64,000 bases of DNA from Protula sp. h YS-2021 (taxonomy: Eukaryota; Annelida; Polychaeta; Sabellida; Serpulidae): positions 50,117,347 through 50,181,346 of the forward strand of contig OX457024.1 of NCBI GenBank assembly GCA_949752745.1, given 5' to 3'. This document shows positions 33,846 to 50,238 of the stretch, in pieces. Made by a program: the position numbers and the translations under genes. Under the pieces are notes generated by a model. The model did not search any database, had not been told where the DNA came from, and saw only the letters and a list, made by a program, of their open reading frames with translations. The number at the start of each line of letters is the position of its first letter. The stretch's first letter is position 1.

Positions 33846-33900
33846 TACTAGCTTTGGCGAAATGTAAATTTGATAGTTGACGCTTAGTAGGGTAGAAATG

Positions 33901-33996: not shown

Positions 33997-34022
33997 GGCC
34001 TTTTTAAACAGTGACCTTAAAA

Positions 34023-34030
34023 TGACGTCA
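34023..34030. promoter_or_regulatory. CRE/ATF-like palindrome TGACGTCA (left TIR)
   Basis: Perfect TGACGTCA, with TGACGCCA at about 34,079. The right TIR keeps two perfect copies. Retention on both sides suggests a host CREB/ATF-type site; this is inference. Confidence 0.45.
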
Positions 34031-34200
34031 CGACTGTTTTAGAACGCCCATGGGCATATTAGAACAGCGACGTTATAATGACGCCACATGGATGGCAGAC
34101 AGACGGTCAGACGCTTTTTTTAAGATTTCCCACACTCTCATGCATACACAGACATACTAACACCATAACACGATTAGCGTTTCATTTTGTAATAGTGGAG

Positions 34201-34216
34201 GGCCCTTAGAAGGGCC
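34201..34216 (-). terminator. Histone-type 3' stem-loop, copy 1 (minus strand)
   Basis: The minus strand reads GGCCCT-TCTA-AGGGCC: a 6-bp stem and 4-nt loop matching the histone mRNA consensus GGYYCT...AGRRCC. It lies 111 nt after the stop codon of the RING gene. Twelve nt 3' of the stem comes AAAATGAAA, a purine-rich element in the place of a histone downstream element. The 5' flank ACTAACACCTCTC resembles that of copy 2. See the findings. Confidence 0.7.
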
Positions 34217-34327
34217 GAGAGGTGTTAGTTTTTCCTGCTGCCAGATTAAAAAAATGCTATGATGTCTTGCACTGGTCGCGCGCAGTCGCTCATTTGCTGC
34301 CCGTTCATCAGGTAGAGCTTTGTTCTC

Positions 34328-34753
34328 CTATTTGCAGCTGAAGCATCTCATGGTGTATCTGTGGGCCAGAGCAGTGTGATATACCCAAGTAGCCGCACAG
34401 TAGATACATGTCTGGTGCCCACAGTCTGCAGCAATCACACGGTCTGGGCTTAGCATGACACCACATCCAATGCAAATATCTACATCCTGCTGCAAGAAAT
34501 ATCGGCTCCAAGCCGGATATTCTTCTTCCTCAAGTCGTGAGGGGATTGACTCCCCCAGCACAGCAGTTCTAAAATATCCGTGGTTGTAGCGCCCCTCCTC
34601 AATGTCTCTCAGACGCTCGCCGATGAGCAACGTTCTGTTCAGGAAGACCGGTATGCATAGCACCGTAGCGTGAGCTGGAGCCGGCAGCAGGTGGAAAACA
34701 AAAGTTCTTTCTGGCTCAGTAACAGGCGGTGTGACCGGCAAATGCACCTCCAT
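34328..34753 (-). CDS. RING-finger protein, leftmost Polinton gene
   Basis: Minus-strand frame of 141 aa starting at MEVHLPV. The open frame continues upstream to 35,020, but that part is translated from G/C runs, so I prefer this ATG. Near the C-terminus is a RING-type C3HC4 arrangement: CIGC, then CGHQTCIYC about 14 residues later, and CFSC at the very end. RING domains usually act as E3 ubiquitin ligases; the substrate is unknown. The middle has an acidic LEEEEYP patch. A TATATAAC box lies at 34,853-34,860 on this strand. An ATG 67 bp upstream (near 34,820) in another frame gives only a short peptide, so a frame error near the start is possible. The gene runs outward into the left TIR and ends in histone-type stem-loop copy 1. 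Confidence 0.65.
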   Translation of the reverse strand: MEVHLPVTPPVTEPERTFVFHLLPAPAHATVLCIPVFLNRTLLIGERLRDIEEGRYNHGYFRTAVLGESIPSRLEEEEYPAWSRYFLQQDVDICIGCGVMLSPDRVIAADCGHQTCIYCAATWVYHTALAHRYTMRCFSCK

Positions 34754-34852
34754 TATATCGGAAAGGGTGAGCGCGTAGTTGATGGGTGCGTACGTAGTAC
34801 TCCATGTTGAACAGTCAGAAGCGGTTGTGAACCCAAACTGAAACGACAAGCA

Positions 34853-34860
34853 GTTATATA
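34853..34860 (-). promoter_or_regulatory. TATA box for the RING gene
   Basis: TATATAAC on the minus strand, about 100 bp before the MEVHLPV start and about 33 bp before the first ATG after it. Confidence 0.5.
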
Positions 34861-34981
34861 GCACCCCCCCCCCAACTGAGCCACAAGCAAGTAAGGACCT
34901 CCGCCCAAGCCACAAGCAAGGACCTCCCCCCCCCCCCGGTAGCCAGCATATACTGTGAGGACAGCCGCTTGTATATAGTAG

Positions 34982-34989
34982 TATATAAA
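34982..34989 (+). promoter_or_regulatory. TATA box for the 35.03-35.37 kb gene
   Basis: TATATAAA. The longest open frame begins at the ATG inside this box (34,989), which therefore cannot be the translation start. The expected transcription start near 35,012 puts the first usable ATG at 35,029. Confidence 0.55.
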
Positions 34990-35028
34990 TGGGGGTTAAA
35001 GACCACATTTTCCAAAACAAGCAGCAAG

Positions 35029-35366
35029 ATGTCTACAAGTCGTACAGTTACAGTGATGCGGAACGGAAGGGCAGTGACGCTGACAACAGAGTGTGGCTAG
35101 AATATCCAGGGCAACCACACAACTGCCCGGTACACCACAATGCACCACGTCATTATTGTTGCAAAACCTGTGGTGGTTTGCTATGGTACAAGTTTACTGC
35201 AAGATTACCTGGACCAGAGCCATGCACAGACTGCTGGTGGTGCGGTGCGACGCTGAAAAACTTCGAGTATTATAATTTTCATCATTTCAAGTGCTCAAGA
35301 AGACCTTTCACGATGGAGCAGTCTTACAGATACCAGTGTAGTTGCGGAAACCCGACCTGTTGGTGA
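35029..35366 (+). CDS. Cysteine-rich zinc-ribbon-like protein, frame-broken at 5' end
   Basis: The C-terminal 90 residues hold paired cysteines (HYCCKTCGG, CTDCWWCGA, HFKCSRR, CSCGNPTCW), a likely zinc-binding protein of unknown function. It is divergent from the RING gene with facing TATA boxes about 120 bp apart. The first ATG downstream of the TATA box opens a 23-codon frame (MSTSRTVTVMRNGRAV...) that stops, while the cysteine-rich part lies in another frame. A one-base error at about 35,095 would explain this. The mRNA end is a histone-type stem-loop 24 nt after the stop. I do not recognise a family. Confidence 0.55.
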
Positions 35367-35390
35367 AGAGTCAACTCACTAACATCTTTC

Positions 35391-35406
35391 GGCCCTTTTA
35401 AGGGCC
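35391..35406 (+). terminator. Histone-type 3' stem-loop, copy 2
   Basis: GGCCCT-TTTA-AGGGCC, 24 nt after the stop of the preceding gene, a typical histone-mRNA distance. It is followed after 12 nt by GAAATGAAA. Its 5' flank is ACTAACATCTTTC. This copy lies outside the TIR and is therefore not simply part of the inverted ends. Confidence 0.75.
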
Positions 35407-35522
35407 ATCCTCTGTTGTGAAATGAAATGTAAATTCTGTATATGTATGAGTGTGTAGAAAAGGGGATGTCTGAGATTACATTTCAGCATTTCAGTTTCAG
35501 CAGTTGACGTGACAACAACAAC

Positions 35523-35672
35523 AATGGCATCTAATTCAGACACATCAGTCTTCTGCCATGATTGCAATGCAACATTTCTATCTCTGGAATTGTTTGTAGC
35601 GCATACATGCAAACCAGCTAAGATGAAACGTGCTCATGGAGAGCTTGTTGAGGAGATTGAAGCCAAGAGATG
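35523..35672 (+). CDS. 49-aa zinc-finger ORF upstream of polymerase B
   Basis: MASNSDTSVFCHDCNATF... with C-x2-C ... H-x2-C spacing, ending EIEAKR. A second, frame-shifted copy of similar sequence follows at 35,720-35,830 (TGTGAATGCATTAAAATATA ... ACCAGCTGAGATGGAAAATG). Probably the broken N-terminal finger region of the polymerase gene, as Polinton polymerases often start with such fingers. Confidence 0.5.
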
Positions 35673-35865
35673 AAAGACGGTACAAGATCGCGTTGACAGA
35701 CCTGATCCGGTCCTATGCTGTGAATGCATTAAAATATATTTCCATCTATGGATACGTTTGAGACACATGCATGCATACCAGCTGAGATGGAAAATGTGCC
35801 TCATGAAGAACAACCTACAAAGAAGCAAAAGACAGGACAAGTAGGGAGAGGCAGAAGGTTTAGTC

Positions 35866-38800
35866 TTGGTGAAAACGCGCAGGAAAAGTGGTTTGAAGTC
35901 TGAAGATGGATCGGATTTACTGCTTGAAATGCGACAGCAGGAGAACCGTATTAAGACACATTTGCTGGAAACCTTAAACCATGGAATGAAATGGTATATT
36001 GTAGTGCATGCACGTTTCAAGAAACTGGCGGCGAATGCAGAAGGTGTTATGACAGAACAAGTGGATAATGCATTTATCAGCAGTCCAACATATACAGCAT
36101 ACAATCCAGCAGATATTGAAAAGGACTTGCCGGAAGCCTATAAAGGATTGCTTACTAGGTTTGGCGAACATGAGCGACAAGGCTCTGGTTGGGTATTGGA
36201 TAACATACTGTATATTAAAGTACATACAGCTACGTTGGTGCTTCTGCCACTGCCGAAGAAAGTGAAGAAAACAAGGGGTGTGATAAACATTAAGAATGAT
36301 GACAACAAGTGTTTCGTATGGTCTGTATTGGCGTACCTTCACCCTCATGACAGAAATGCAAATCGCGTGAACCAATACAAGCCATTTGAGAAGGAATTAA
36401 AGGTGGAAGGTATGACATTTCCGACGCCAATTACTGACATTCCAAAGTTTGAAAAGGAGAACGATGTAGCCATCAACGTGTTTGGATATGAACAAGATGT
36501 CGAAACACCAGTGCGAGAGAAATCAACTTGCTTCTGATTAGCGATGACAAGAAAAGGCATTACTGCTTCATCAAGAATTTCAGCAGACTTATGACTTATC
36601 GATCAAAGCATCATGGAACAACTTTTTATTGTTTCAACTGTCTTCACGGGTTTGTGCGACAAGAGCTTTTAGATAAACATCGTGAAGTGTGCGGCAAGCA
36701 TGGAGCGCAACCCCTCATCAAGTTCAAGAATGTAGCAAAACCGCAGCGAGCAACTTTTGTGATTTATGCTGACTTTGAATGTTTCACGAAAAAGCAGGAA
36801 GGAGACAAGTATCAACATCATCGTCCAAACAGCTTCGCCTATGTAGTTGTCAGCCAGTATGACATACGTGCACCAGTTGGGTATCGAGGAGACAACACCG
36901 TAAAAGTCTTTCTAGACCATATAGTGAATGAACGTGATCATATTGTGCATGGTTTACAGCAGCCAAAGGGCATGGTGATGACTCGCGAAGACAAAGAGGA
37001 TTTCAAGAACGCTGTTGATTGCTACATTTTTCATGAGCCTCTAGGAGCAGATCGTGTGAGAGAACATGACCACATCAATGGCAAATACCGCGGAGCTGCA
37101 CATAATGAATGCAACTTACAATTCCGACTCAGAAAGGATCAGCAGGGGGATAAAGATTCTTTTATCATCCCTGTGTTTTTCCACAATTTACGAGGCTATG
37201 ACAGCCATTTGATCATGGAGGAAATTGGAAAAGTTAAAAATGAAACGATTACAGTCATTCCCAACACCATAGAGAAATATATTGCATTCACCATGAGCAA
37301 TCTAAAATTTACAGACAGCTTTCAGTTCATGAGTACCTCTCTACAGAAGTTAGTATCCAACCTTGTGGCAGAAGGGAAAGATAACTTCTACAACATGACC
37401 TCTCACATTCACGATAGCAACCAACAAGATTTGCTGCTGAGAAAGGGAGTGTATCCCTACGATTTCGTGGACGAACCATCCAAGTTTGCTGAAACACAGC
37501 TACCATCAAAGGACAAATTTTATAGTCAGCTCAGCGAAGAGGACATTAGTGATGAGGATTATGCTCATGAGCAGAAGGTGTGGGATACATTCAACTGTAC
37601 CACATTCGGTGAATACCATGACCTGTACCTGAAATCAGATGTGCTACTGCTAGCTGACGTGTTTGAAAATTTTCGTCAAGTGTGTCTCAACACGTATGAA
37701 TTGGATATGTAATGTTAAAAGCGACAAAGGTGAAGTTGGGATTGATCAATGACATTGACATGTACCAAATGGTTGAACAAGGCATACGTGGAGGAATATC
37801 TGTGATCACGCACAAGTATGCGAAAGCAAATAATCCCTACGTAGCAGATTACAATTCTGAGTTACCAAACAACTACCCGATGTACCTCGACGCAAACAAC
37901 TTGTATGGCTGGGCCATGTCACAAAGCATGCCACAAAGAGAATTTATGTGGGTGAGCGAGCCAGAATCCATCGACTTCATGGATGTAGCTGAAGATGACG
38001 ATATTGGATTCATTTTGGAAGTGGATTTAGAATACCCAAATTCAATCCATGATCGTCATAATCACTACCCAGTGGCTCCAGAACGGAAATGTGTCAAAGT
38101 TGGAGAATTGTCAGAGTACAGTCAGAAGCTGCGGAAAGATCTGAGCATGAAAGACAAACCCAGTGGAAAGCTCATTCCTAACTTGTCTGACAAGAAGAAA
38201 TATGTACTTCATTACAGGAATTTACAACAGTACGTCTCACTGGGGTTGAAAGTCACCAAAGTACATCGTGCCATCATGTTTGAACAGAGCAAATGGCTAG
38301 CAAAATACATTACCTTGAACACAGAAAAGAGAAAATTGGCTAAGTACCCATTTGAGAAAGACTTCTTCAAACTGATGAACAACTCAGTGTTTGACAAAAC
38401 CATGGAAAATGTGAGAAAGCGAATCAATGTTGAACTTGTTCACAAGGAAAAGCGGTTCAAGAAACGTGTAGCCAAACCTTCTTTCAACAAATTCAAAATT
38501 TTCAACGAAGATTTGACCGCTGTACATTTGCGCAAAGTGGATTTGCTTCTGGATAAACCCATTCAAGTTGGTTTCACCATTCTCGACCTCAGCAAAGTGC
38601 TTATGTTCAACTTTCATTACAACTACATCATGGTCAAGTATCCCAATGCCAAGTTGTTGTTCAGCGACACCGACAGTCTATGTTACGACATAGAAACGGA
38701 AGATATCTACAAGGATATGCAGCAAGATGCTGACCTGTTCGACACAAGTGACTATCCGCCAGATCATTTCCTACATTCCAACGTGAACAAAAAAGTGCTT

Positions 38801-39136
38801 GGGAAAATGAAGGTTGAGACGGCAGGCGTCCCCATTGAAGAGTTTGTTGGACTCAGACCGAAAATGTACAGTTTATTGTGTGGTGGGAAAGAAAAACATA
38901 CAGCTAAAGGCATCACTCGAGCTTGCCAAAGACGCATTAAACATGTGCAGTATAGAGACAGTTTGTTCAAGAAAACTCAAACGATGGCTACAAGACACAT
39001 TATTCGAAGTCATAGTCACCAGCTTTTCTCAGAGAAGATGGGGAAAGTAGCCCTCTTCCCATATGACGACAAGCGATATGTGCTGAATGATGCTTATTCC
39101 ACCTTAGCTCATGGACATTACAAGGCTGTGGTATAA
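35866..39136 (+). pseudogene. Protein-primed DNA polymerase B, broken in at least two places
   Basis: Three consecutive frames. Frame 1 (35,866-36,537) is the N-terminal region (GSGWVLDNILYIKVHTA; VINIKNDDNKCFVWSVLA). Frame 2 (36,528-37,712) has a treble-clef-like FYCFNCLHGF...KHREVC finger, exonuclease motifs YADFECF, FHNLRGYDSHLI and YHDLYLKSDVLLLAD. Frame 3 (37,712-39,136) has palm motif A DANNLYGWAM, motif B region KLMNNSVFDKTMEN and motif C FSDTDSLCYD. Breaks: a one-base shift near 36,515, and at 37,707-37,715 a stop plus loss of roughly a dozen residues compared with the family. Motif B has Asp where the family normally has Gly before KTMEN. The gene has no ATG-led start. The enzyme normally copies the element from a terminal protein primer. 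Confidence 0.9.
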
Positions 39137-39139
39137 AAA
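39132..39139 (+). promoter_or_regulatory. TATA box overlapping the polymerase stop codon
   Basis: TATAAAAA followed by GGGGAGG. The polymerase stop TAA (39,134-39,136) is inside the box, and the next ATG is 55 nt downstream at 39,194. It parallels TATAAAAG boxes at 47,937-47,944 and 48,876-48,883 on the other strand. Confidence 0.6.
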
Positions 39140-39193
39140 GGGGAGGTCCTCTAACGTAAGAGTTATTTGAGGTGTGAACATTGAAGAGTTAAC

Positions 39194-39549
39194 ATGGAAC
39201 TTGGAAGTGGTAAGAGGTCTACAACTGATATGGATACTCTTGCAGATACAGTCAAAGACTTAAAAGTTAAAAATCCTACCACTACCATCAAGAAATTGAA
39301 AGTGGAGACGGCACCAACACCACAGTCGTGGGATGTAATGCTTTCTCTAGGAAATGGAAAGTATATCAAGGTTATGAAACAAAGCAATGAAGGAGTGGTA
39401 AACATTCGCAAGTACCTCAGAGATGAGGGGACGGGAAGAAACCGTCCTACGAAAAGGGTATTTTGCTGACAATACCTGAATGGAAAATGTTGAAGAAGCA
39501 AGAGAAAGAAGTGGATAAAAGGCTTCGAAGACAAGAAGACGGCTCATAA
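39194..39549 (+). CDS. PC4-like (single-stranded-DNA-binding fold) protein, one-base frameshift
   Basis: The first frame (39,194-39,469, 91 aa) has a Lys/Thr-rich N-terminus. It is followed by LGNGKYIKVMKQ and VNIRKYLRDEG....RPTKR, the beta-strand pattern of the transcription coactivator p15/PC4 C-terminal domain. The domain's final strand and helix (an LT.PEW.ML motif and a basic tail) continue in another frame from about 39,466 to the stop at 39,547-39,549. PC4 folds bind melted DNA; in a protein-primed replicon an SSB or promoter role is plausible. It has its own TATA box at 39,132. Similarity is by motif recognition only. Confidence 0.6.
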
Positions 39550-39564
39550 CAAGGTATTCTCATC

Positions 39565-39969
39565 ATGAATGCACTCATCTTTAACGGTGGTGCTTACCTT
39601 ACTGTAAATGAGAGGAATGAAGTGATAATAGGTTCTCGGATAAGTTCTGATTATCGGTTTAAACCTGAAGTGTGGAAAGACTTTAAAAACATACCGCTTA
39701 AACCTGGGTTTAAACGCAGACTTGAAAATAAAGTTGAAGTGTATGTGATTGAACATGATTCTAACATACGTGTTAGATTCTGGAGAAATCTTTTACAGGA
39801 TTATCCTGAAGATTATGATGGAGTTGTGCCAGATAATTCATATGCAGATATGTTTCACTTTGATATGAAGAATTGGCGCGCAGTCTTACGATTCCTAGAA
39901 GCTGCCCACTCTTCACCATCTTGGGAGCATAAAAACGTCTTTGCCGACAAGGAGACAGCTCATAGTTGA
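39565..39969 (+). CDS. Uncharacterised 134-aa protein, possibly PC4-like
   Basis: Intact ATG-led frame following the preceding gene by 15 bp. It holds alternating strands (GGAYLTVNERNEVIIGSRI; NKVEVYVIEHDSNIRVRFW) and ends in FHFDMKNWRAVLRFL, a strand-W-helix ending like the PC4 ending of its neighbours. The C-terminal EHKNVFADKETAHS may be frame-shifted tail. No family recognised with confidence. Confidence 0.5.
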   Translation: MNALIFNGGAYLTVNERNEVIIGSRISSDYRFKPEVWKDFKNIPLKPGFKRRLENKVEVYVIEHDSNIRVRFWRNLLQDYPEDYDGVVPDNSYADMFHFDMKNWRAVLRFLEAAHSSPSWEHKNVFADKETAHS

Positions 39970-40037
39970 TTTGACTGTTGAACGAGATGGAAGACTATTT
40001 GTTGGATTATAAACCCATTACACATTGATTCTCATAT

Positions 40038-40232
40038 ATGAGAAACTTATGTGATGACATTGTACTAAAACATTTTGGAAAGTATATCATTCTATCACCT
40101 GACGAACAATCTGTGTTGAAAGAACATCTAGAGAAGTTGAGGATACCTGGCTTTCTCCTAATACTCTCAAATGAATTAGAAGTGCGTGTTACTGAGAACT
40201 GTCTAGACGTGTTTGTAGAATTTCCGACATGA
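40038..40232 (+). CDS. Small 64-aa ORF, unknown
   Basis: ATG-led frame MRNLCDDIVLKHFGKY...; acidic and aliphatic, no cysteines beyond three. It overlaps the next ORF by 4 bp (ATGA-type), typical of compact element genes. It may be the C-terminal part of a frame-broken gene that begins near 39,990. Confidence 0.35.
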   Translation: MRNLCDDIVLKHFGKYIILSPDEQSVLKEHLEKLRIPGFLLILSNELEVRVTENCLDVFVEFPT

Positions 40233-40603
40233 ATATGAAATCTATGACTACATCACCCTCAACACAGTGGAATGGTACGCTCTGTTACAAGCATTGGATT
40301 GGAAAGAACCTGGTGCTTGAATTTAAAGAGGAAGGAGTGCAACTCATGCGGGGCACCAAGTCCATTGAGCTAACACATCCCATGTGCGTTTTGGTGATGG
40401 ACATTGACATAAATAAAGATGGATATGAACTGAAACTGTCTGAACACGAAGATGTTAAAATAATAAAGTTTGGTAATGGACAGTGTTATGCTAGTTTTCA
40501 TAGCATTTACAAACGTGGGTGTAATGTCTATGATACATATATTAATTTAGATTGGTATGAATGGCATGTGTTTATCGATGTATTGAATGTATTTGTGAAA
40601 TAA
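40229..40603 (+). CDS. 124-aa protein, PC4-like C-terminus
   Basis: Intact frame. Residues about 80-120 (FGNGQCYASFHSIYKRGCNVYDTYINLDWYEWHVFIDVL, split here as GNGQCYASF, YDTYINL and WYEWHVFIDVL) follow the same GNG-strand / strand / W..F..L pattern as the 39,194 gene. The last plus-strand gene before the convergent junction; AATAAA follows at 40,652. Role unknown; paralogy with the 39,194 and 39,565 genes is inferred. Confidence 0.5.
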   Translation: MNMKSMTTSPSTQWNGTLCYKHWIGKNLVLEFKEEGVQLMRGTKSIELTHPMCVLVMDIDINKDGYELKLSEHEDVKIIKFGNGQCYASFHSIYKRGCNVYDTYINLDWYEWHVFIDVLNVFVK

Positions 40604-40651
40604 AAGTTTAATGTAAAAAACAATTGTAAAAATGTAAATAATGTATAACAC

Positions 40652-40657
40652 AATAAA
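40652..40657 (+). terminator. Poly(A) signal AATAAA, plus-strand genes
   Basis: 49 nt after the 40,603 stop, in AT-rich sequence between convergent genes. Confidence 0.6.
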
Positions 40658-40684
40658 CAAAGAATGTTGTATAAAACTGTCTTG

Positions 40685-40690
40685 TTTATT
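40685..40690 (-). terminator. Poly(A) signal AATAAA, minus-strand genes
   Basis: TTTATT on the plus strand, about 58 nt beyond the protease stop. Together with the signal at 40,652 it marks a convergent poly(A) junction. Confidence 0.6.
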
Positions 40691-40747
40691 TACAATAAAA
40701 TTAACAGTTACCAACTTCTTAACTAATACAACTTAACTAATATAACA

Positions 40748-41186
40748 TCAATAAAATAATGGTTTATAATGTCTATATACAAAATCCTTTACAACAAAAT
40801 CACCATCACTTCTTCTTAATACATCAATGATTTCAAAAGGACTATGTCCTCGAGCTCTTTGAATTATATAATACACACAATAAAATCCACATGTAGATGA
40901 TATTGGTGTTTGTAATGGAACTGAATTATAAATGAAATCAAACTTTTTCAAAATTTAAAAACTTATTCAAACAAAAGTCCATAAGAAGTCAAAATATTCT
41001 GCAGGGTCTTTGTCATAATATACTGCCACCCAATGCTCTCCTGGCTCATCATGATCGTCTGTGTTGATGACATAGGTTGTAACCGCGTTGTAAAGATGGT
41101 AACTGGTCCATGGAAAACACACCTTGAAACAAGTCTTTTGTCACGGCATCATGGGATAGGATGGCTTCTATCTGCTTCGTGTTCAT
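40748..41186 (-). pseudogene. Adenain/Ulp1-type cysteine protease, two frame breaks
   Basis: Virion maturation protease type. The ATG at 41,186 opens MNTKQIEAILSHDAV, a typical family N-terminus. The frame shifts near 41,085, after which EHWVAVYYD gives the catalytic His segment. A second break near 40,955 precedes the C-terminal frame with the TPISSTCGFYCVYYI segment (Gln and nucleophile Cys in QTPISSTCG). All catalytic landmarks are visible but in three frames, so this copy would not make protease as read. Distal gene of the minus-strand capsid block. Confidence 0.85.
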
Positions 41187-41224
41187 GACTGGTAGTCGAA
41201 TTGAATGCTACGATTTGCGCTTAT

Positions 41225-42550
41225 TTAAACAATGTTATCAAATTCAGCATACACTATAACATTGACTGTATTTTGCAAGGCACCAGCAAAATTCATTTCT
41301 ACTCGCAAATTCCCATGTTTGATAAGGGCATAATGATCATCACCATCATAATCAGGTGTTAAGTCAAAAGAAAATAAAGCATAACCTCTAGGCCAATCTT
41401 CCCGTTTTATAATGGAACTTTTCTCACCATTCAATCTATCAAAGGATTTGTAAAGAGTTTCAAAAGCATCAAGATATTTGCCTCGATTTATGTTAAGCTT
41501 GAGAGGTTTAGATAGGACTGGTTCACCATCCGTGTAAAGCTGCATAAAGTTAAGATCAAAATGATCAAAATTGTATGGATTTCCTAATACTGTTCCAGCA
41601 AAGGCTTCATTATGAACCAGTCCAATAACAATACGTTTTGGTAATTAGCCTAAAAAGATGTTATCTTTCACAAAAGATAGAAATCCAGCTGGAATAGCTA
41701 AAATTTTACATTCTTTTCTAGTAATAATAAACTTACCAGGAGTTTTCATCAATGCATCTGCATGCCCTAACTGAATACCTGGACTAACCCTCACTTTGCG
41801 AATGGTTGAAAAGGCATCTCTCACTTCTACTTTAAAACCCTTATTTGCAGTAATTTATACATATTTTTGTCTATGTAAACTTAATTTCATACTAATACCA
41901 TTTGGAAGATAGCGATCTTGCTCAAACAAATCTACTCTTAAACCACCTGTAAGCGTAAACTCACGGCTTAGACGTGTATACAAATAACGATTATGTAAAC
42001 CATTATTTCCCTGTAGAGCTATATCACCACCCTTAACATTTACATGAAAACCTGCTACATATCTTTCATTATTAGCTCTTTTCACCTCATGAGTATTCAT
42101 TGACCCAGCAGTGTCTTTATACATGAGACGCATAGAGCTCTCAGGATGGAGGCTTTCTTCAGAGTCATGAATGAGACGAGATGTGATGCTGGTATATCCA
42201 TGGGTATTGCTACTATGTGATACCAAACGATCATTTAGAAACAATTCAATATTGGACCATAACCCATTAAACAAATCATTGATACATGATACGTTATCAT
42301 CTACATCACATGGTGTTCCATCAGCCTTTACAATAGCGCCAACAATATGAAGTTTACTATTCTTTAAATCTAGATATTCTTCTGTACTCGCAGGAATGTA
42401 GAATTCTACTGGAGCACCCTCTCTAATGGTAGCCAGTGGTTGATAGTCTGCATTATAACTTTTTTCAACAGCAGTTTGCTTTGGTGGTATGCGAAACCAT
42501 TCTAATGGAGAAAGACTGCATTCACAAGAATGATTATGAATTAAAGACAT
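41225..42550 (-). pseudogene. Major capsid protein (double jelly-roll), interrupted by stops
   Basis: N-terminal frame 42,550-41,855 (231 aa; EWFRIPPKQTAVEKSY, PVEFYIPASTEEYLDL, NDLFNGLWSNIELFLN) and C-terminal frame 41,545-41,225 (ALFSFDLTPD..., LRVEMNFAGA, NVIVYAEFDN) are the two ends of a Polinton/adintovirus hexon-like capsid protein of about 440 residues. The middle (41,546-41,850) is recognisable (VRVSPGIQLGHADAL; AIPAGFLSFV). Breaks are a TAA at 41,855-41,857, with some family sequence apparently lost there, and an in-frame TAA at 41,645-41,647. It forms the icosahedral shell in related viruses. Confidence 0.88.
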
Positions 42551-42584
42551 GATTAAAAAATATCTTTCTTATATTTTGTTGATG

Positions 42585-42898
42585 TTATCCGTTTAGCTGC
42601 CTGACACGTTTTGCTGGTTGTGCTCTGTTTTGTCCTCCTAACCCATCACCAAACACTCGTTGTGCTATTCGGCCTGTAACATCTTTCGCGACATCTTTGC
42701 AGCCTTTTTAAGATGTGGTGCAACGATTTTAGCCCCTGCCTTAAGCAGTGGAATAGCTTTGCGAGCCAATGATCCCAATATTGAACGAATAACATCTCCA
42801 TATTGTATTCGCGCTCCTTTAAATCCTGGTAATTCCCCGCCCACCTGACGAAGAAAATGGTTGCGATACGTAGACGGATCGTGTGTACATGCTTTCAT
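42585..42898 (-). CDS. Basic virion peptide (adenovirus pVI/pX-like), C-terminal frameshift
   Basis: 77-aa frame with FKGARIQYGDVIRSILGSL followed by ARKAIPLLKAGAKIVAPHLKKAA (split motif). This is a glycine-rich amphipathic segment and basic helix typical of the small membrane-active or DNA-condensing virion protein encoded next to the capsid gene in Polintons. The frame ends at 42,665; an Arg/Gln-rich tail ending at 42,585 continues in another frame after a one-base shift near 42,670. Confidence 0.7.
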
Positions 42899-42929
42899 AA
42901 TGCTTTTGGTCGAAAATGAAGTTTACATA

Positions 42930-43646
42930 TCACTTTCTCAGTTTGAAATAAAAAACATTATGACTTGTGTCATCCTTAATATTCATTGTTCATTCTATTG
43001 TCTCAAATTTAGATATGTTTACAGTGACATGATGAGGTTCTTCATAAGTTTTCATAACAATATCACCATCGTCCTCTTTAATGGGAACAGAACGTAGTAA
43101 AGGAACATAACAATCACCAACTACTTGTGGCACAAATACTACAGAACACATGAAGTGTATAAAATCCATGTTTCGCATCGGATTGATGTTCAGCAGGACC
43201 GGATTCTTTATACCATTTATCTGGTTTAAATCCTAAAATCTCACTAAGCCAGTAGAAAAGAAAGTATCATAATCATCTCTCAAAATAAGATAAACTCTTC
43301 GACTAATTTTATTATACTTTAACTGAATAGGGTTTGCATTAATAGATTTTTGTAATTCTTCATTTATTGCAGTACATATTTCAGGTATGAACCTGTAGTA
43401 ACCATATGGAATGGTAACTGCATAAAATACTTCTAATGATGATCGATAATGAAGAGTATATTCTATTCCTGGCCTCATTGTCGTCCATGTATGCGGGTAT
43501 TGAATTTCAGCTAAGGCTAGTTCATATTTTCCTTTCCAATATATTGTACGAGGTAAACGAATTTGAAAAGTAGAAGCCTTATTAGTAGGATAATAGTTCA
43601 TACTAGCATTGCTGGGTAAAGTAATGTAAAAACTTGTTGACTCCAT
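42930..43646 (-). pseudogene. Penton-like minor capsid protein (single jelly-roll), broken
   Basis: The frame from 43,646 (MESTSFYITLPSNASMNYYP; LALAEIQYPHTW; GYYRFIPEICTAIN) is the conserved N-terminal half of Polinton minor capsid/penton protein and stops at 43,233. The C-terminal half (VVGDCYVPLLRSVPI; EEPHHVTV; FETIE) is at 43,178-42,990. One in-frame TGA (42,987-42,989) separates it from the last residues, MNIKDDTSHNVFYF, ending 42,930. It occupies capsid vertices in relatives. Confidence 0.85.
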
Positions 43647-43700
43647 GATGACTAAATCGTTTGTGTGACGTAGATAGACTGGATATGTATATACATTACT

Positions 43701-44450
43701 TCATGTTTGACACTCGTCATCTCCATTGCTGTCTACATTGTCGTCTAAATTGCTATCTACATGATCTACATTGGTATCTACTACTTCTCCTTGACAACAA
43801 GCACTGGCACACCTAATTTTTACAGGAATAGTATTTTTATTTTCATTTTCTTTACAACAACAACACCATAACTCTTTAATCCATGTTAAAACGTTTCCCA
43901 TCCTTCGTTCACGTTGTTGCATCTCTTTTGTAATATCACCAGTTGTCTTTTTGCCAAAAACAGTTTTTGCAATATTAGCGTCTACAATTTCCTCAATAAA
44001 CTGCTTCCAACCATGTGTTGGTTCTCGTCGTTCTTTTCTTCTTGTAGAAACCAATGCTTCTTTCAACAAATCAATAATGTTGGAATTTGTAATGACAGTA
44101 CCCGTTTTTAAAAAAAAATTCATTTTTATCTGTCCATCTCGTACCATATTTCTTAAGTTCTGCCAGGAGTTGTGTTAGTTTTACATGATAAATAGGTTGA
44201 AATGGTTTAGAAACTGTTGGGACTTTTCTGATGTTTCTGCTTTGGATGATGTAACAGACTTTTGTTGTGACTGAGTTGTTCGTAAATGACGTCCAAGAAC
44301 TTGAGACAGTTCTATTGCCTTTTCACGAGTTCGTTTCCCACGTAAAAGTTTATTCACTTTCGTTTTGATCTCACCATCTATTCCCTTCTTTTCTAACAAC
44401 ATTTTATATTCATATTCAGGAATGAGGACCATTTTCATAGTATGTTTCAT
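43701..44450 (-). pseudogene. Conserved Polinton protein of unknown function, frame-broken
   Basis: Starts MKHTMKMVLIPEYEYKMLLEKKG (given here as its first motif MKMVLIPEYEY), with a basic KVNKLLRGKRTREKA segment. After a break near 44,160 it continues as FFLKTGTVITNSNIIDLLKEALVS...GWKQFI..IVD.NI....FGKKTT. A CCCC patch and an Asp-rich tail end it. This start and the 'IIDLLKEAL' block recur in metazoan Polinton neighbours of the ATPase gene, as I recall the family. A homologous remnant lies in the decayed Polinton at 31,736-31,981. Confidence 0.65.
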
Positions 44451-44769
44451 TTTAACAGCAACTGAGCTAACAAAGGTAATACAAATTGAGCAATAGCTCC
44501 AATGAATCCTCCTTTCTGATTAACCAACTTCTTTTTTCTTCGAAGTGATATCTTCTTATCTGCCAGTGTAGGGTATGACGTTCACGCTTGAATTCCTTAT
44601 ACCTTTTTGAGCTTAAGGGTAAATGTCCTCGCAGTATATTCAAACAAATTTCAAACAAGCTACTTAATTCCTCCTTAGTAGCTTGTTGTAACAAGGATTT
44701 ACGTCGTTTAGGCCCACTGCGTGCGAGCAAGTGAGGAAAAGGTTGATTCGCTTGAATACGTTTAGACAT
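44447..44769 (-). CDS. Small conserved Polinton protein, basic helical with hydrophobic tail
   Basis: MSKRIQANQPFPHLLARSGP, LQQATKEELSSLFEICLNIL and KRYKEFKRERHTLHWQ: a predicted helical, Arg/Lys-rich protein commonly found beside the packaging ATPase in Polintons. The frame ends at 44,467. The usual glycine-led hydrophobic C-terminal tail (GGFIGAIAQFVLPLLAQL) is present in a shifted frame ending at 44,447. That stop would overlap the ATG of the next gene (ATGA), supporting the shifted frame as original. It overlaps the ATPase stop by 8 bp. Confidence 0.7.
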
Positions 44770-45421
44770 CTTGGCTGCGAATGGTTAAGTGACTTGGTTC
44801 TTGTTTATACGCTACTTTATCAACATGTAAGTAATGTGTATCTTTTGGTAAAATGCCTGTACGAATACGTAGTTGATCATTCGTCTTCGGCTTCAAATCA
44901 ATGAATAAATAGCCATGAGGTTTGCTCGTAGCATCTTGATAGGCTTCTATGAGAAATTGAGATTTTCCAGGATACATTTGTGGCGCTAATGTACTTATTT
45001 GTTGACTGTCTCTAAGATTTTTAAAGAGAATGATGTAATGTGTATTCAAACTAATATTTCGCATTTCTCTACCATGATGGAACAAATTATGCACAATAAA
45101 AATAATGCCTAGATTTTGATGACTGCTGCCAACACTAAAGACACGTGTCATACGCTCATCACTATGACATTTGGTCATTAAGTCATCAATGATGAGTAAG
45201 TTTGCTTTTTTCGGATTAAAACGCTCTTCAATGTCATCTAGAATGCCTTGGTAAAATTCCGCACCCTTCATTCCCTTGTATAAAGGCTGATCTGCTGTAT
45301 AGAGCCATAAAATGGTTTTTGGAGAGGGTTTAATTAACTTTTGTTCTAGAATTTCTCTAACTAGAGAAGTTTTACCACTGCCTGTAGGTCCAGAGACCAA
45401 ACATGTGAATGGATGCTTCAT
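44762..45421 (-). CDS. Genome-packaging ATPase (FtsK/HerA type), intact
   Basis: 219 aa, ATG-led, no breaks. Walker A GPTGSGKTSL at residues 10-19, Walker B NLLIIDDLM near 93-101, and the sensor-like FIVHNLFHHG near 128. Length and motifs fit the Polinton/adintovirus A32-like packaging ATPase that drives DNA into capsids. It overlaps the small gene downstream and the end of the integrase upstream (45,418-45,421, ATGA overlap), so the minus-strand genes are tightly coupled. Confidence 0.92.
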   Translation of the reverse strand: MKHPFTCLVSGPTGSGKTSLVREILEQKLIKPSPKTILWLYTADQPLYKGMKGAEFYQGILDDIEERFNPKKANLLIIDDLMTKCHSDERMTRVFSVGSSHQNLGIIFIVHNLFHHGREMRNISLNTHYIILFKNLRDSQQISTLAPQMYPGKSQFLIEAYQDATSKPHGYLFIDLKPKTNDQLRIRTGILPKDTHYLHVDKVAYKQEPSHLTIRSQDV

Positions 45422-46547
45422 TTTCGAATATCAGTTTCTTTCACCCAACTGTTAAACTTCTTTGGCCAACCTAACCATTTCACAAATAATTCTTTAACAC
45501 CTCGCCTTCTTCGTGTTTTCAAAACCTTTTCAATTCTGTAGACAGATTCAATATCTTTTGTTACTTTCTGCAGTTCTTCTTCATAGAAATGTCCATCAAT
45601 ATCCTCGTCTAAAAAGTCTTTCACACGATATAAGTGTATTCCTTGCTTCTTACAACGATGTGTGATAATGAAGACTTTTTGCGTTCACTTTATATGATAA
45701 TCCCGTTGAAATACATATTTCATGTGGGAAATGCGAACCTGATCACCAATTTTAAATTTGTAGGTTTTTTCTCCTTTGGTTTCAATTTCAGTTTGTCTAC
45801 ATACATATACTTCTACACTTTCGATTCGATGTCTTTACGAATATCTGCTGGAGCATACTTACTAGGGAGGGAGCCACGAGGTCTATGGTTGTAATTATAC
45901 ACTAAGTCTGGAAGGATGTCCATATAGCGATAAGTTTGATTGTGTAGGAAATATCGATACATCATTCCCTTTAGAGTACGAATGACTCTCTCAGCAAAGT
46001 TGGCTTTGGTTTCGTTCTTTGTTGTATAGGCATGTATTCCCTCCTTCTTCAAAAATGTTTTTACCCATCTGTTTTTAAATTCAGTTCCTTTATCCGACCT
46101 TAGAGTTCGTGGTCTTCGTTGTGTTTCATGAAAAATCTTTTGAAATGCTTCTATGACACTGGTATGTGATTTATTAGGTATTTGTTGCACCCATAAATAT
46201 TTGGAAAACACATCAATGACAACCAATAAAAAGCGGGTGTCATCATTATAGGGAGCTATGTTTCCCATGTCAGCTAAATCAATATCCCACATGTCATCAA
46301 TTCCACGTGTAATGACACGTTGCCTTTTAAACCTGTATTTTATAGGTTGCAGTAAACTGAAGGCATCCTGATCCTGTAACCATTTCTTCACTTGCGAATG
46401 AGTGACTGGTTGATCATGTTTTTTAATATGTGAAAAGTTTGTAAGGGCCAGCAAATGCCCCAGGTTGACCAGGTTTAAAGTAAATATTGGTAAGGCAGTC
46501 TTTCCACGTCGACATGTTAACACTAAATGATTAACACTTGTCAACAT
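45418..46547 (-). pseudogene. Retroviral-type integrase with C-terminal chromodomain, frame-broken
   Basis: The core frame (46,547-45,813) has the DDE triad: Asp in DDMWDIDLADM, Asp in TLRSDKGTEFKN, and Glu in KANFAERVIRTLK. After breaks in 45,625-45,812 the C-terminal frame (45,624-45,418) holds a chromodomain: YRIEKVLKTRRRRGVKEL, then FVKWLGWPKKFNSWV. In the region between, KFKIGDQVRISH-like and a shifted TQKVFIITH can be read. The N-terminal zinc-binding part before SQVKKWLQDQDAF looks shifted too. Integrates element DNA; the chromodomain probably steers it to modified histones. Confidence 0.9.
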
Positions 46548-46596
46548 ATCTTTTTATTTTGTCTTACAACTCAATCAACATGTTTTTATAACTCAA

Positions 46597-46910
46597 TCAA
46601 CATATCTTACAGATCAAGTATTGATATAATGGTGTGAATAATTGGAGTCCTTGATCTTTAATGAATATTAACCAACTACTTAATTCATCTAATGTGCTAG
46701 CATCTACACCATAATTTTCACAACGTTGATTTGCATTATCTAACACTTTATCTAAATGAATATAATATTTAACTTCATTCAAGTATGTTCTGAACACTCT
46801 TCATTTTGACAAGCAGGACATACTAAACATGCAAACTTTTTTACAGCTAATAACATTTCTTCACAATATGTTTTTTGCACAATATATTGTCTCAATGTAA
46901 TGTCTACCAT
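46597..46910 (-). pseudogene. Small zinc-knuckle protein, one-base frameshift
   Basis: ATG at 46,910 opens MVDITLRQYIVQKTYCEEM, then FACLVCPACQNEECSEH (C-x2-C-x2-C cluster), and stops. From about 46,800 the frame ending at 46,597 (FRTYLNEVKYYIHLDKVL...) continues. A single base change would join them into about 105 residues. The start overlaps the previous gene's stop (TAATG). Unknown function. Confidence 0.5.
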
Positions 46911-47155
46911 TATAATGCAATGTAGATTAACCACCCTCTCACTTCATCAAACAGTCTTGGATCAAATCGAGCAAAGTGATGTGCTGCTTTCACATCAAAC
47001 TCCTAAGCTCCGTCAATGTTTGAAAGCACACACTCTTTGATGAAATCCTCGCGTAAGTTTGGTACGTTTAACGTGGAATGAGCAAATTCCCAATAAATGT
47101 CAAAGTGTTCCAGTTGTTGTTGAATAGATCCAAAACGCGCCAGTTCACTTATCAT
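46910..47155 (-). pseudogene. Unrecognised coding fragment with one in-frame TAG
   Basis: Reading from ATG 47,155: MISELARFGSIQQQLEHF, then EFAHSTLNVPNLREDF, TAG at 47,003-47,005, and FARFDPRLFDEVRGWLIYIAL to the stop at 46,910-46,912. Codon usage and the TAATG overlap with the next gene argue that it was coding. It may be the C-terminal part of the 47.26-47.90 kb gene after a shift. Confidence 0.5.
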
Positions 47156-47261
47156 GTAGTCCACATACCCATGAAAAACGTTTCTACAGCCATCTTTGTT
47201 TCACATATCCATATGACACATCTGCACACTTTGACGGCTGGCAAGCAAATGATTTGTAGTC

Positions 47262-47896
47262 TTACTCGACAGATGCTGTTAGTGAGCCGCACTTGTTGCA
47301 GAAGTTGTCAGGTTCACACAACTTGCAATTGTACTTATGGCAGTGACAAACATAATCCTCAGCATATCCGTAAGCACCACAATATTCACAGGTAAGTCCA
47401 AGTTGATTTTGCACGTTCATATTCTCCAATCGAACTTCAGCCAGTCTGTTCTTGGATAGCTTCGACACTTTCATTCGCTTATCCTTTTGCAGCTTGATAG
47501 GAGTTTTCTTCCCATGACATTCCGTACATGGCTCAAGTTTGGCGAATAAGACTGAGTTGATGTTATCCATTTCCTGAAGAAATGTCTCCCATTCACCATC
47601 ATTCATGTTAATGTGTAACGCGTATATTCTTTCCCTTCAAACAAGGATGTTTGCACAAAACTCACATAGCGCATATCCAAGTATGAAAAGACTTCAAGCC
47701 ACTTCGTTTGCGTTAAGTACAGTTTGAAGCCAATGTTGCATAATCTTGTTAAGTTCTGACACACAATCATCCACAAGGACGGTGATAAAGCAAGCCATCT
47801 CTCCCCATGTTTGATTTGAAGAAATTGTCCAAATTGTCCATGCTCCACAGTAATGGTGAAGTTTGCACTAATTTTAAAGCTGCTTGTCTTCTCCAT
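47262..47896 (-). CDS. PC4-like plus zinc-ribbon protein, one-base frameshift
   Basis: Start chosen at ATG 47,896 (MEKTSSFKISANFTITVEHG) because a TATAAAAG box lies 41 bp upstream. The first frame contains GQFLQIKHGERWLALSPSLW and LEVFSYLDMRYVSFVQTSLF followed by GKEYTRYTL. The second frame from 47,606 gives DGEWETFLQEMDNIN. Together these make two repeats of the strand...W..(L/F) pattern of PC4-like folds. The C-terminus has three zinc-binding clusters (CTECHGK; CEYCGAYGY; CELC-like NCKLCEPDNFCNKC). It is likely a nucleic-acid-binding protein. The shift is near 47,605. Confidence 0.55.
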
Positions 47897-47936
47897 GGTT
47901 GTGCATTGAATGATGACTGCACTTGACACCTCACTC

Positions 47937-47944
47937 CTTTTATA
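47937..47944 (-). promoter_or_regulatory. TATA box TATAAAAG for the 47.26-47.90 kb gene
   Basis: TATAAAAGGAG on the minus strand, 41 bp before the chosen ATG. It decides the start over the longer GTG-led frame. Confidence 0.6.
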
Positions 47945-47950
47945 TGGACA

Positions 47951-48834
47951 TTACATGTATGTTTTCATGAGATGTTTGCAAAATCGCGGAGTGATCTCAT
48001 TGAAACCATCCAGAAAGGCTGTTGGCAAACCGTCTGTTAGAGACTGTCTCATGACGATCACTAAAAAGTCCCCTCGTTTGCGACTCCCAATTATCCATTG
48101 AAAGAGCATTGGTATTGTGAAATGTCCTTTTTCATAGAGGTAGGCCATCATATCATACACCTTAATACGTTCTTCAAGGTACTTGAAGCCATGTAGCATG
48201 ACCTTTGCACATTTGTAATCGCAATACTCATCAACACACTTTGGCGCCGGTAGACATAAAGTCTTAAAAAATTCCTCATAAAGACTCCTAATAAGTTGAA
48301 CGAAACGCCGGGTCACGGCTTCGGAGAACTGTGGCTCTGACGCGGGAAGATGTTCTATGTTTCCTTCTAGCATGTAGATAAGCTGAATGACAGTGTTCAC
48401 TTCTTCCGTTAGGTACATGTATGTGTGTTGATCGAAAAACCTTCTTCACATAAACGCCATAAAATGTTGCAATCCATCAGAAGAATCACTGCTCGAAAGT
48501 TTCGTTTCAACAGCGTGGCGTCTTCCTCAGTAACAGGAATAGTTTTGCTCAGTTCAAATTTAGATTTGAGCTGCTTGTCATCGTCGTCGCTGTCGTCATC
48601 GCCGTCGTTGTCGTCATCGCTGCCGCTGTCGTCATCGTCGTCGTTGTCGTCATTGTTGTCGTCATCGCTTGACATGATCACTTCTTCAGCTTTTTCAGCT
48701 TCTGCCAGTGTACTTAGGAAGGTAGCAGTCTCCTCTGCAGTTAAAACTGCATCTGTAAAAGCCATTGCTTCGTTGTTAAACAAGCTATCAATTTCCATGT
48801 CGCTAGCTAAAGGTGCTATCAGAGACGTTTCCAT
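47951..48834 (-). CDS. Acidic protein of unknown function, one-base frameshift
   Basis: Start chosen at ATG 48,834 (METSLIAPLASDMEIDSLF), because a TATAAAAG box (48,876-48,883) overlaps the first codons of the longer frame. An Asp/Ser tract of about 45 residues (48,550-48,665) resembles acidic activator or histone-binding segments. The frame ends at 48,409, and the continuation (TEEVNTVIQLIYMLEGNI; FVQLIRSLYEEFFKTL; YLYEKGHFTIPMLFQWI) is in another frame from 48,418 to 47,951. The second part is helical, without recognised motifs. No family identified. Confidence 0.55.
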
Positions 48835-48875
48835 GATGTCTTTGTGATAATTGTCATAGCATTGAAGAACACTCG

Positions 48876-48883
48876 CTTTTATA
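48876..48883 (-). promoter_or_regulatory. TATA box TATAAAAG for the acidic protein gene
   Basis: Lies 42 bp before ATG 48,834, inside the longer open frame, which argues against the upstream ATG at 48,891. Confidence 0.6.
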
Positions 48884-48909
48884 CTACTCATTGGTGAATC
48901 AGAAGCTCG

Positions 48910-49325
48910 TTTGGGGAAAGGGGGGGGGTCAAAATTGTGGACTTGTTTGAAACGTGTAAATATGCAAAAAGCGCAAATTCTCCCGGGGGGGGGGGGTCGA
49001 CAAAAAAAAACAAAAAATGCTTAGAATTGTCTAAAACGGATAAATATGCAAAAATCGCAAATTCGACCCCGGGGGGGGGGTCCAAAAACTAAAAATGTTC
49101 TCAATCGTCTGAAACGGATAAACATGCAAAAATAGTAAATTCGACCGGGGGGGAGGAGTTCGACCAAAAAAACCAAAAATGTTTAGAATTGTCTGAAATG
49201 TAGAAATATGTGAAAATCACAAATTCGACCCGGGGGGTGGGGTCGAAAAACTAAAAATGTTCTGAATTGTCTGACACGGATAAATATGCAAAAATCGTAA
49301 ATTCGACCCGGGGGGGAGGTCGTCC
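48910..49325. repeat. G-tract minisatellite, about 5 units of 67-86 bp, inside the Polinton
   Basis: Each unit has a run of 7-12 G, AAAATGTTTAGAATTGTCTG-like sequence, ACGGATAAATATGCAAAAAT and CAAATTCGACC. G-runs begin near 48,917, 48,984, 49,070, 49,147, 49,231 and 49,310. It sits between two divergent genes of the right arm. Confidence 0.9.
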
Positions 49326-49354
49326 CAAAAACAAAAACAAATATATATATATAG

Positions 49355-50019
49355 ATGGCTCACTTTGCTGACTTCTCACACTTGCCAAAACTTCAGCTAC
49401 AGTCATCATGGAACTTCGCGAGCACGATCACGAAGCTTGCGCTGAAGGCTACACCTACGCCAAAGCCCAAGACGACGCCCAAGACGACGCCTGAGAAAGC
49501 GACTGTGACGAAGCTGCCTGATGCAACCGCAGAATTGTCAATATTCTTTGGCATGCTTGCCACCAGCCCGCATCCGGTCACTTTTATGGATGATGATGAC
49601 GAAACTGCAGCAGCCGTGGCAGCCATCACCAAGCTGTAGCAGCACACTTCCGACTTGCGCGTACCGAAACCGCCCGCCGACTTAAACCTGGCAGACCCCA
49701 GAAAAGAGTCACTGAAAGACGTGCGGCAAATCCTCGGCTCATTTAATGAGTTCTCGATCTTTTGTAACTTCTGCGGACACCTGATTCCTCAAGGAGTCCC
49801 GAGGAGTTTGCACGAGGCAGCCTGTGGAGACGCAAAAAACCTGAGGCTTACTACTGTAGCGTCCTGGGCAGGCAGTTTAAGTCGACGGCGGGGTCGGTTG
49901 CTGCGCATAGGAGGAAGTGCCGCTGCAGCCACACACAGCGACGGAGGAGGGGCAGCAGGAAAAGACTCGGGACCGGCAGCAGGACAACATCTCCGGCTCT
50001 TTTTAGAGCCACTCACTAA
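49355..50019 (+). CDS. Zinc-finger protein, rightmost Polinton gene, frame-broken
   Basis: ATG 49,355 follows a TATA-like run (49,341-49,353). The first frame has a Thr/Pro/Lys repeat (TPKPKTTPKTTPEKA), an FMDDDDE patch, and ends at 49,639. A next frame (from 49,655) reads FCNFCGHLIPQGV...H....C, a C2HC-type finger. From about 49,825 a third frame gives YYCSVLGRQFKSTAGSVAAH followed by RRKC and an RRRRGSRKR nuclear-localisation-like stretch, ending 50,017-50,019. Two shifts are needed for one protein of about 220 residues. The gene points outward into the right TIR and its 3' end overlaps histone-type stem-loop copy 3. Function unknown. Confidence 0.5.
49995..50010 (+). terminator. Histone-type 3' stem-loop, copy 3
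   Basis: GGCTCT-TTTT-AGAGCC, the textbook histone stem, followed by ACTCACTAATAC (12 nt) and GAAATGAAA. The C-G pair at stem position 4 of the other copies is T-A here, a compensatory change. Unlike the other two, it overlaps the end of the open frame in all readings, which may reflect frame damage. Confidence 0.7.
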
Positions 50020-50238
50020 TACGAAATGAAACGCTAATCGTGTTATGGTGTTAGTATGTCTGTGCATGCACGAGAGTGTGGGAAATGCTTAAAAAATGTC
50101 GTCTGCCCGGCTGTCCGTCTGCCCGCGTCTGACTGTCTGTCTGCCATCCATGTGACGTCATTATAACGTCGCTGTTTTAATATGCCCATGGGCGTTCTAA
50201 AACAGTCGTGACGTCATTTTAACGTCACGGTTTTAATA

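Follow-up and report, generated by a model that had tools for sequence, protein, structure and literature searches.

Histone-type 3′ ends in animals are, to our knowledge, essentially private to replication-dependent histone genes, and a 64-kb stretch of the Protula sp. h YS-2021 genome (contig OX457024.1; hereafter the window) raises the question of whether genes of a Polinton can end in the same way. The initial annotation of this stretch proposed that they do and that their mRNAs mature by the histone pathway. Histone-type 3′ ends on Polinton genes find strong support in the sequence: a stem-loop is followed by a cleavage region and by a downstream element that matches the one in host histone genes, and the arrangement recurs in a second family as well as in many diverged copies.

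The window element and its three stem-loops

The window carries the following features, given by coordinates and, where one applies, strand.

33897..34217, left terminal inverted repeat, with outer 24-bp tandem units (33897-33999) and stem-loop 1 at its inner end
34177..34187, minus, downstream element AAATGAAACGC, 13 nt after stem-loop 1
34201..34216, minus, stem-loop 1, GGCCCT-TCTA-AGGGCC; RF00032 24.5 bits (E 4.1e-3)
34328..35008, minus, RING-like zinc-finger ORF of 226 aa that precedes stem-loop 1 (RING label by eye)
34989..35366, plus, cysteine-rich ORF "ZnF", 125 aa, before stem-loop 2
35391..35406, plus, stem-loop 2, GGCCCT-TTTA-AGGGCC; RF00032 26.6 bits (E 6.9e-4)
35420..35429, plus, downstream element AAATGAAATG, 13 nt after stem-loop 2
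36591..39136, plus, DNA polymerase B, split here between two frames (DNA_pol_B_2 match of the first piece, E 2.5e-7)
44762..45421, minus, packaging-type ATPase, 219 aa (Adeno_IVa2, E 8.3e-8, above its cut-off)
45418..46547, minus, pieces of rve integrase and chromodomain (rve E 1.7e-11, Chromo E 8.9e-9)
49355..50029, plus, degraded two-zinc-finger gene upstream of stem-loop 3 (reading frame disrupted here; open-ended relatives exist)
49994..50342, right terminal inverted repeat, its inner edge one base before stem-loop 3
49995..50010, plus, stem-loop 3, GGCTCT-TTTT-AGAGCC; RF00032 29.4 bits (E 6.5e-5)
50024..50034, plus, downstream element AAATGAAACGC, 13 nt after stem-loop 3

The terminal inverted repeats lie approximately 16 kb apart and align as an outer pair (33897-34114 with 50125-50342; 218 nt, 94%) and an inner pair (34115-34217 with 49994-50096; 103 nt, 86%). 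Together with the polymerase B, which the DNA_pol_B_2 match identifies and for which protein priming is predicted, the retroviral-type integrase and the packaging ATPase (381 homologues at E ≤ 1e-3), they mark the element as a Polinton/Maverick. The second piece of the polymerase is 65% identical over 474 aa to a 1406-aa ORF on the polymerase side of a second Polinton family (L039), and that ORF gave no polymerase match in Pfam at E ≤ 0.1. In Pfam, no capsid family scored above its cut-off in the window or the second family, and the capsid genes referred to below are those that we take to be such; a search for an adenain-type protease in the second family gave a weak match below the cut-off (E 0.037). 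Searches of viral contigs with the ATPase, with a 20-row ATPase alignment and with two motif scans returned no related viral contig.

All three hairpins lie where the initial annotation had placed them, on the strands it gave, and are exact motif matches; each fits GGYYCU-N4-AGRRCC, the claimed 6-bp stem and 4-nt loop, and the distances of 111 and 24 nt from a stop codon to stem-loops 1 and 2 are correct. The motif GGYYCTNNNNAGRRCC occurs three times in the 64-kb window and not once in 100 dinucleotide shuffles. Model R1, whose training rows include all three window stem-loops, scores them at 61.9, 55.5 and 69.5 bits (stem-loops 1, 2 and 3), and its next match in the window reaches 13 bits; the shuffles and this background, 13.1 bits at best, led us to reject a chance origin. 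The scan of the window with the Rfam model RF00032, proposed as a check, returned the three hairpins at 29.4, 26.6 and 24.5 bits and nothing at the gathering score of 34. Hairpins 1 and 3 occupy the innermost part of the two terminal-repeat arms and are therefore not mutually independent, whereas hairpin 2 lies outside the repeat and was seen again in one further locus, L122.

The genes that precede the hairpins are small. The RING-like ORF had no Pfam match, none of the ZnF, MSLRL and MEHE proteins received a Pfam name, and a protein search with ZnF found no homologue. Close to the start codon, a TATA-like box is present in the six terminal genes inspected, and their ORFs are uninterrupted. 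The window RING-like ORF stops earlier than those of several relatives; among ten RING-end loci, the frame ends 30-60 nt upstream of the hairpin in six and crosses the hairpin start in two (L046 and L048), while it stops 136 nt upstream in L049 and is broken in L059. At the opposite end, the two-zinc-finger ORF ends 50-56 nt upstream of the equivalent of hairpin 3 in 18 of the 27 parsed loci (of 30 related); the window and a pair of RING-end loci, L014 and L023, are counted among the 27.

A downstream element in common with host H1 genes

The Polinton hairpins and the host H1 genes have in common the element AAATAAGC, located 12-13 nt after the stem. It is present in all five host H1 loci and, by hand count, in 11 of 26 Polinton rows, with AAATG(A/T)AACGC in a further 9 and a differing sequence in 6; altered elements were seen in L047 and L048, and several decayed copies have altered hairpins. 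Judged by likeness, this is a histone downstream element at a fitting distance. U7 snRNA, with whose 5′ end such an element would pair, would be recognised by Rfam RF00066 or by GCTTATTT near an Sm site. A model built from the 26 Polinton rows alone recovers all five H1 loci and an H2B remnant (assigned by eye) at 45-48 bits, the next best match scoring 15.

The 26 Polinton rows, which are related, divide at stem pair 4 into 17 with U-A and 9 with C-G; the stem departs from full pairing in two rows, each with one unpaired position, and one row has A-U at pair 1. A C immediately precedes the stem in 22 of the 26 rows, as it does in the host H2B remnant, whereas host H1 genes have AAA there. Because A residues before the stem matter for SLBP affinity, the affinity of SLBP for the Polinton hairpins might be lower.

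Genome-wide matches and a second Polinton family

At least 75 RF00032 matches were scored genome-wide, and among the matches listed, 69 are at terminal Polinton genes and only 6 of 75 at histone genes (five H1 and the H2B remnant); a histone stem-loop model thus returns mostly Polintons in this genome. The RING gene of the second family accounts for 54 of the 69 listed Polinton matches, at 37.4 bits. We considered whether these could be histone genes and rejected this because all 54 loci match the RING protein of that family; in 51 of the 54, an open RING frame ends 22-30 nt upstream of the hairpin. When 80 kb of arbitrarily chosen sequence was scanned, the sole match above noise was another ZnF copy of the window family.

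The second family has four hairpins, each located 16-23 nt past the stop codon of one of four neighbouring small ORFs and on the coding strand. The RING hairpin exceeds the gathering cut-off of 34, and the other three fall below it (33.7, about 24.5 and 20.2 bits). Between the two families, the RING genes are only 30% identical over 79 aa and the ZnF proteins 59% identical over 85 aa. No hairpin-model match was found in L039, and a second RING-like ORF located there (6729-7277), whose frame is disrupted in the copy inspected, lacks a hairpin in the surrounding 400 nt; therefore, not every terminal gene carries one. A further 18 ORF ends from the two families were inspected, and none has a hairpin. 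The anatomy of these 3′ ends, their recurrence and their match to the 3′ ends of host histone genes are direct observations.

A proposed histone-like route for terminal genes

We consider it probable that the terminal Polinton genes are histone-like units giving rise to mRNAs that are processed by SLBP and U7, lack poly(A) and are present mainly in S phase. The small zinc-finger and RING genes, with a TATA-like box (in the six inspected), an uninterrupted ORF, a stem-loop and a downstream element 12-13 nt further on, would be transcribed into RNAs whose stem-loop is most likely bound by host SLBP and whose downstream element would pair with the U7 snRNP. The mRNA would then be cleaved just past the stem-loop with no poly(A) added, and we infer that such mRNAs would be made, kept and translated chiefly during S phase, the time at which DNA can be replicated. 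SLBP and U7 use, the absence of poly(A) and the S-phase timing are predictions from the likeness to histone genes. This likeness points to elements that borrow histone RNA machinery from their host and may time their terminal genes to DNA replication.

The hairpin could instead act through SLBP in the stability, export or translation of mRNAs that are still polyadenylated downstream, with no part in 3′ cleavage. An AATAAA more than 100 nt past the stop codon in two of the seven hairpin ORFs (MSLRL and MEHE) would suit such transcripts, but the other five have no AATAAA or ATTAAA within about 220 nt, and the downstream element, on which cleavage of histone transcripts depends, has retained its proper spacing; we regard this alternative as unlikely. 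We consider it very unlikely that the hairpins act at the DNA level, as terminal-repeat palindromes serving replication or integration, and merely resemble histone ends. Two of the three window hairpins do sit where the terminal repeat meets the element interior, and conservation extends into the adjoining repeat sequence outside them (mean identity 0.88 at +25 to +50). As the sole explanation, however, we rejected this because hairpin 2 lies outside the window repeat and the four hairpins of the second family lie approximately 0.8-3.7 kb inward of the point where two copies diverge (L040:978), each downstream of a stop codon and in the sense orientation; moreover, a DNA palindrome would have no need of a downstream element in common with host histones. 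Least probable is that a histone 3′ end was captured once and copied among element genes as a passive relic, or that it acts as an SLBP decoy against histone mRNAs, since the likeness from stem to downstream element, as expected from capture, is set against paired changes at stem pair 4 (in related rows), a rise in mean identity from 0.45 to 0.90 at the stem-loop in 11 RING-end loci (although the terminal repeat also starts there) and the retention of hairpins after RING genes as diverged as those of the two families.

With SLBP- and U7-processed terminal mRNAs as the preferred reading, a broader proposal, to which we give an even chance, is that Polintons took over the histone mRNA pathway as a second 3′-end system. 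The terminal regulatory genes would then be poly(A)-less, SLBP/U7-processed and S-phase-limited and the polymerase and capsid genes polyadenylated, such that two gene classes are split by 3′-end type and the first is tied to host DNA replication. The block of the polymerase and that of the presumed capsid genes run towards each other and meet in a region where ordinary poly(A) signals are found. Histone-type 3′ ends that recur on mobile-element genes, in no fewer than two diverged Polinton families of this single genome and with a downstream element matched to that of the host, would show a virus-like DNA element exploiting the histone 3′-end pathway and would give Polinton gene expression a simple link to S phase; if the terminal-gene mRNAs do lack poly(A), poly(A)-selected RNA-seq would miss them.

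The initial annotation knew of no description of this in Polintons, which holds for discussion in the open-licence literature, where we found no mention beyond a bare count: in the portion accessible to us, a 2025 survey (PMC12220804) gives six "histone 3′UTR stem-loop" Rfam matches in 8300 Polinton-like/virophage genomes, without interpretation.

Compared with the 3′ ends of replication-dependent histone mRNAs (RF00032), the Polinton hairpins have the same 6-bp stem and 4-nt U-rich loop within GGYYCU/AGRRCC, mostly an ACCCA-like 3′ flank and a downstream element at 12-13 nt, and the RING hairpin of the second family passes the curated score. They differ in that they are located on mobile-element genes, in that C rather than the AAA of host H1 mostly precedes the stem, and in that the window hairpins and three of the four in the second family score under the cut-off. 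The window element itself resembles Polinton/Maverick elements and Polinton-like viruses in its DNA polymerase B, rve integrase with chromodomain, Adeno_IVa2-like ATPase and terminal inverted repeats, but unlike in those known elements, its terminal genes bear histone-type 3′ ends.

Stem-loops of the window Polinton and their counterparts

Within the 863-Mb animal genome examined, the window carries a Polinton at ~33.9-50.3 kb that has inverted repeats ~16 kb apart and encodes a DNA polymerase B, an rve integrase with a chromodomain and an ATPase of the adenovirus IVa2-like type. Several of its genes are broken here. The three histone-type hairpins reported by the initial annotation were recovered exactly, as were the distances it gave from the upstream ORFs for hairpins 1 and 2; the window contains three occurrences of the motif, against none in 100 shuffles.

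34115-34217: terminal repeat, inner arm (inverted-repeat detection)
34201-34216, minus strand: hairpin 1, 111 nt 3′ of a RING-like ORF
35391-35406, plus strand: hairpin 2, 24 nt 3′ of the stop codon of a cysteine-rich ORF
49994-50096: terminal repeat, inner arm (inverted-repeat detection)
49995-50010, plus strand: hairpin 3, 3′ of a two-zinc-finger gene (broken here)

The terminal repeat has hairpins 1 and 3 at its inner edge, both pointing outward; hairpin 2 lies outside it. Units of a 24-bp tandem repeat (33897-33999 and 50239-50390) lie in the outer part of both repeats, and a 78/162-bp tandem repeat with G-rich stretches (48943-49341) separates the last minus-strand ORF from the right-end gene. 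With the Rfam Histone3 model (RF00032), which the initial annotation had proposed as a check, no hairpin was called at the cut-off of 34 bits, and all three ranked below it as matches of 46 nt that include the downstream region.

For hairpin 3 we fetched 30 loci, of which 27 could be parsed (including the window and two RING-end loci), and in 18 of these the two-zinc-finger ORF ends 50-56 nt ahead of the hairpin. Hairpins are altered in several decayed copies (L015, L025, L031, L035; loops of five bases in L032-L034; a mismatch in L020, L021, L028), and L030 and L038 have an A as first loop base. Ten related RING-end loci were compared. In six of them (L047, L050, L053, L054, L055, L057) the RING frame stops 30-60 nt 5′ of the hairpin, and in two (L046, L048) it overruns the hairpin start; in L049 it stops 136 nt ahead of the hairpin and in L059 it is broken. 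On contig C2, the zinc-finger gene end and hairpin recur in two apparent tandem arrays, at 93.635-93.654 Mb (L010-L013, L016, L017, L019-L021, L028, L037) and 94.049-94.068 Mb (L032-L034), with spacings of ~2 kb and ~6.2 kb.

A covariance model that includes the window hairpins (R1) scored them at 69.5, 61.9 and 55.5 bits, the next best match in the window reaching 13.1. On sixteen arbitrary 5-kb stretches (80 kb), R1 rose above noise only once (60.7 bits, L122), at a further copy of the window family's zinc-finger gene and hairpin, and an RF00032 scan of 13 of the 16, leaving out L122, gave no match up to E 5. Because one of the sixteen stretches held a copy of the window Polinton family (L122:3969-4999), this family may be abundant.

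Genome-wide matches and a second Polinton family

All 75 scored places of the RF00032 genome search, the best candidates of a first look, were inspected. Five are histone H1 genes (L001, L002, L041-L043; L002 assigned by its tail and model score) of a host H1 that we take to be mollusc-like. One, L052, was recognised by eye as an H2B-like remnant followed by an intact stem-loop; it does not lie with the H1 loci on C4. Fifteen are Polinton RING or zinc-finger (ZnF) genes of various subfamilies, among them L044, assigned by eye with no match at E ≤ 1e-3, and L051 and L056, whose matches on the hairpin strand are all short.

The other 54 share one score above the cut-off, 37.4 bits, and because they were selected by that score, their identical hairpins are not countable as conservation. 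All 54 listed loci (L003-L008, L061-L108; contigs C1-C11) have the same hairpin tail and match one RING protein, with identity of at least 94% in 53, which suggests a recent spread, and in 51 the hairpin comes 22-30 nt after an open RING end.

This 54-copy repeat is itself a Polinton, because locus L039 has a polymerase, a weakly adenain-like protease (E 0.037, below its cut-off) and a presumed capsid ORF that has no Pfam match; the polymerase ORF (1406 aa) shares 65% identity with the window's second polymerase piece across 474 aa. Four small ORFs (ZnF, MSLRL, RING and MEHE) lie on the polymerase strand toward the element end, each followed by a hairpin at 16-23 nt. Only that of RING exceeds the Rfam cut-off, those of ZnF, MEHE and MSLRL scoring 33.7, ~24.5 and 20.2 bits; the first stem pair of MSLRL is A-U. 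If the element ends near L040:978, where two copies stop being homologous, the hairpins lie ~0.8 to 3.7 kb inside it. A perfect 44-nt palindrome (L040:927-970) lies near this point, and long tandem-repeat ORFs on both strands (L040:3649-4757) adjoin the copy. The hairpin has been kept after both genes shared with the window family, whose proteins are 30% (RING, 79 aa) and 59% (ZnF, 85 aa) identical.

Hairpin-bearing and other genes

Hairpins were found at none of the 18 other ORF ends (13 in the window, five in the second family), seven of which carry a poly(A)-type signal. A second RING-like ORF beside the polymerase (L039 6729-7277; broken there) lacks a hairpin within 400 nt, and R1 found no match in 8 kb of the polymerase side of L039. 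Poly(A)-type signals occur on both strands where two gene blocks converge (window ~40.6-40.75 kb; L039 1453-1866). In five of seven hairpin ORFs there is no AATAAA or ATTAAA within ~220 nt of the stop; MSLRL and MEHE have such signals farther out, and MSLRL an additional ATTAAA immediately ahead of the stem. The gene classes are clearly split by hairpin, the split by poly(A) signals being only suggestive. For six hairpin ORFs the upstream sequence was inspected by eye, and each has a TATA-like box at most 80 nt from the start codon, the start codons of the two window ORFs being assumed.

Downstream element and host histone ends

Downstream elements of this kind pair with U7 snRNA in histone genes. 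In host H1 genes, AAATAAGC lies 13 nt 3′ of the stem. Of the 26 Polinton rows in alignment A3, 11 carry this octamer 12-13 nt beyond the stem, nine have AAATGAAACGC or AAATGTAACGC, and six have a different element (w2, MEHE, L047, L048, L056, L058). A covariance model built from these 26 rows, with no histone included, recovered the H2B remnant and all five H1 loci with scores of 45-48 bits, the next best match having 15. Stem cells are paired in 98.7% of cases, against 5-57% in slid controls, and pair 4 is U-A in 17 rows and C-G in nine; because the rows are related, these counts are not independent events.

Taken together, the sequence evidence for a histone-type processing signal on these Polinton genes is strong. 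The best reading is that the mRNAs would be cleaved 3′ of the hairpin via SLBP and U7 and left without poly(A), and the outcome would probably be S-phase expression.

Viral-contig searches (the ATPase, a 20-row ATPase alignment and two motif scans) returned nothing related. In the open-licence literature we found no other account of histone-type ends in Polintons besides an uninterpreted count, in a 2025 survey (PMC12220804), of six Rfam matches to the histone stem-loop among 8300 Polinton-like and virophage genomes. Because of that count, ours is not the first Rfam-model match in such an element; what is new is the whole system, namely the repeated placement after terminal genes, the host-matched downstream element and the contrast with core genes.

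The Polinton ends differ from those of host H1, where AAA precedes the stem: in 22 of the 26 rows the base before the stem is C, as it also is in the H2B remnant of the host.
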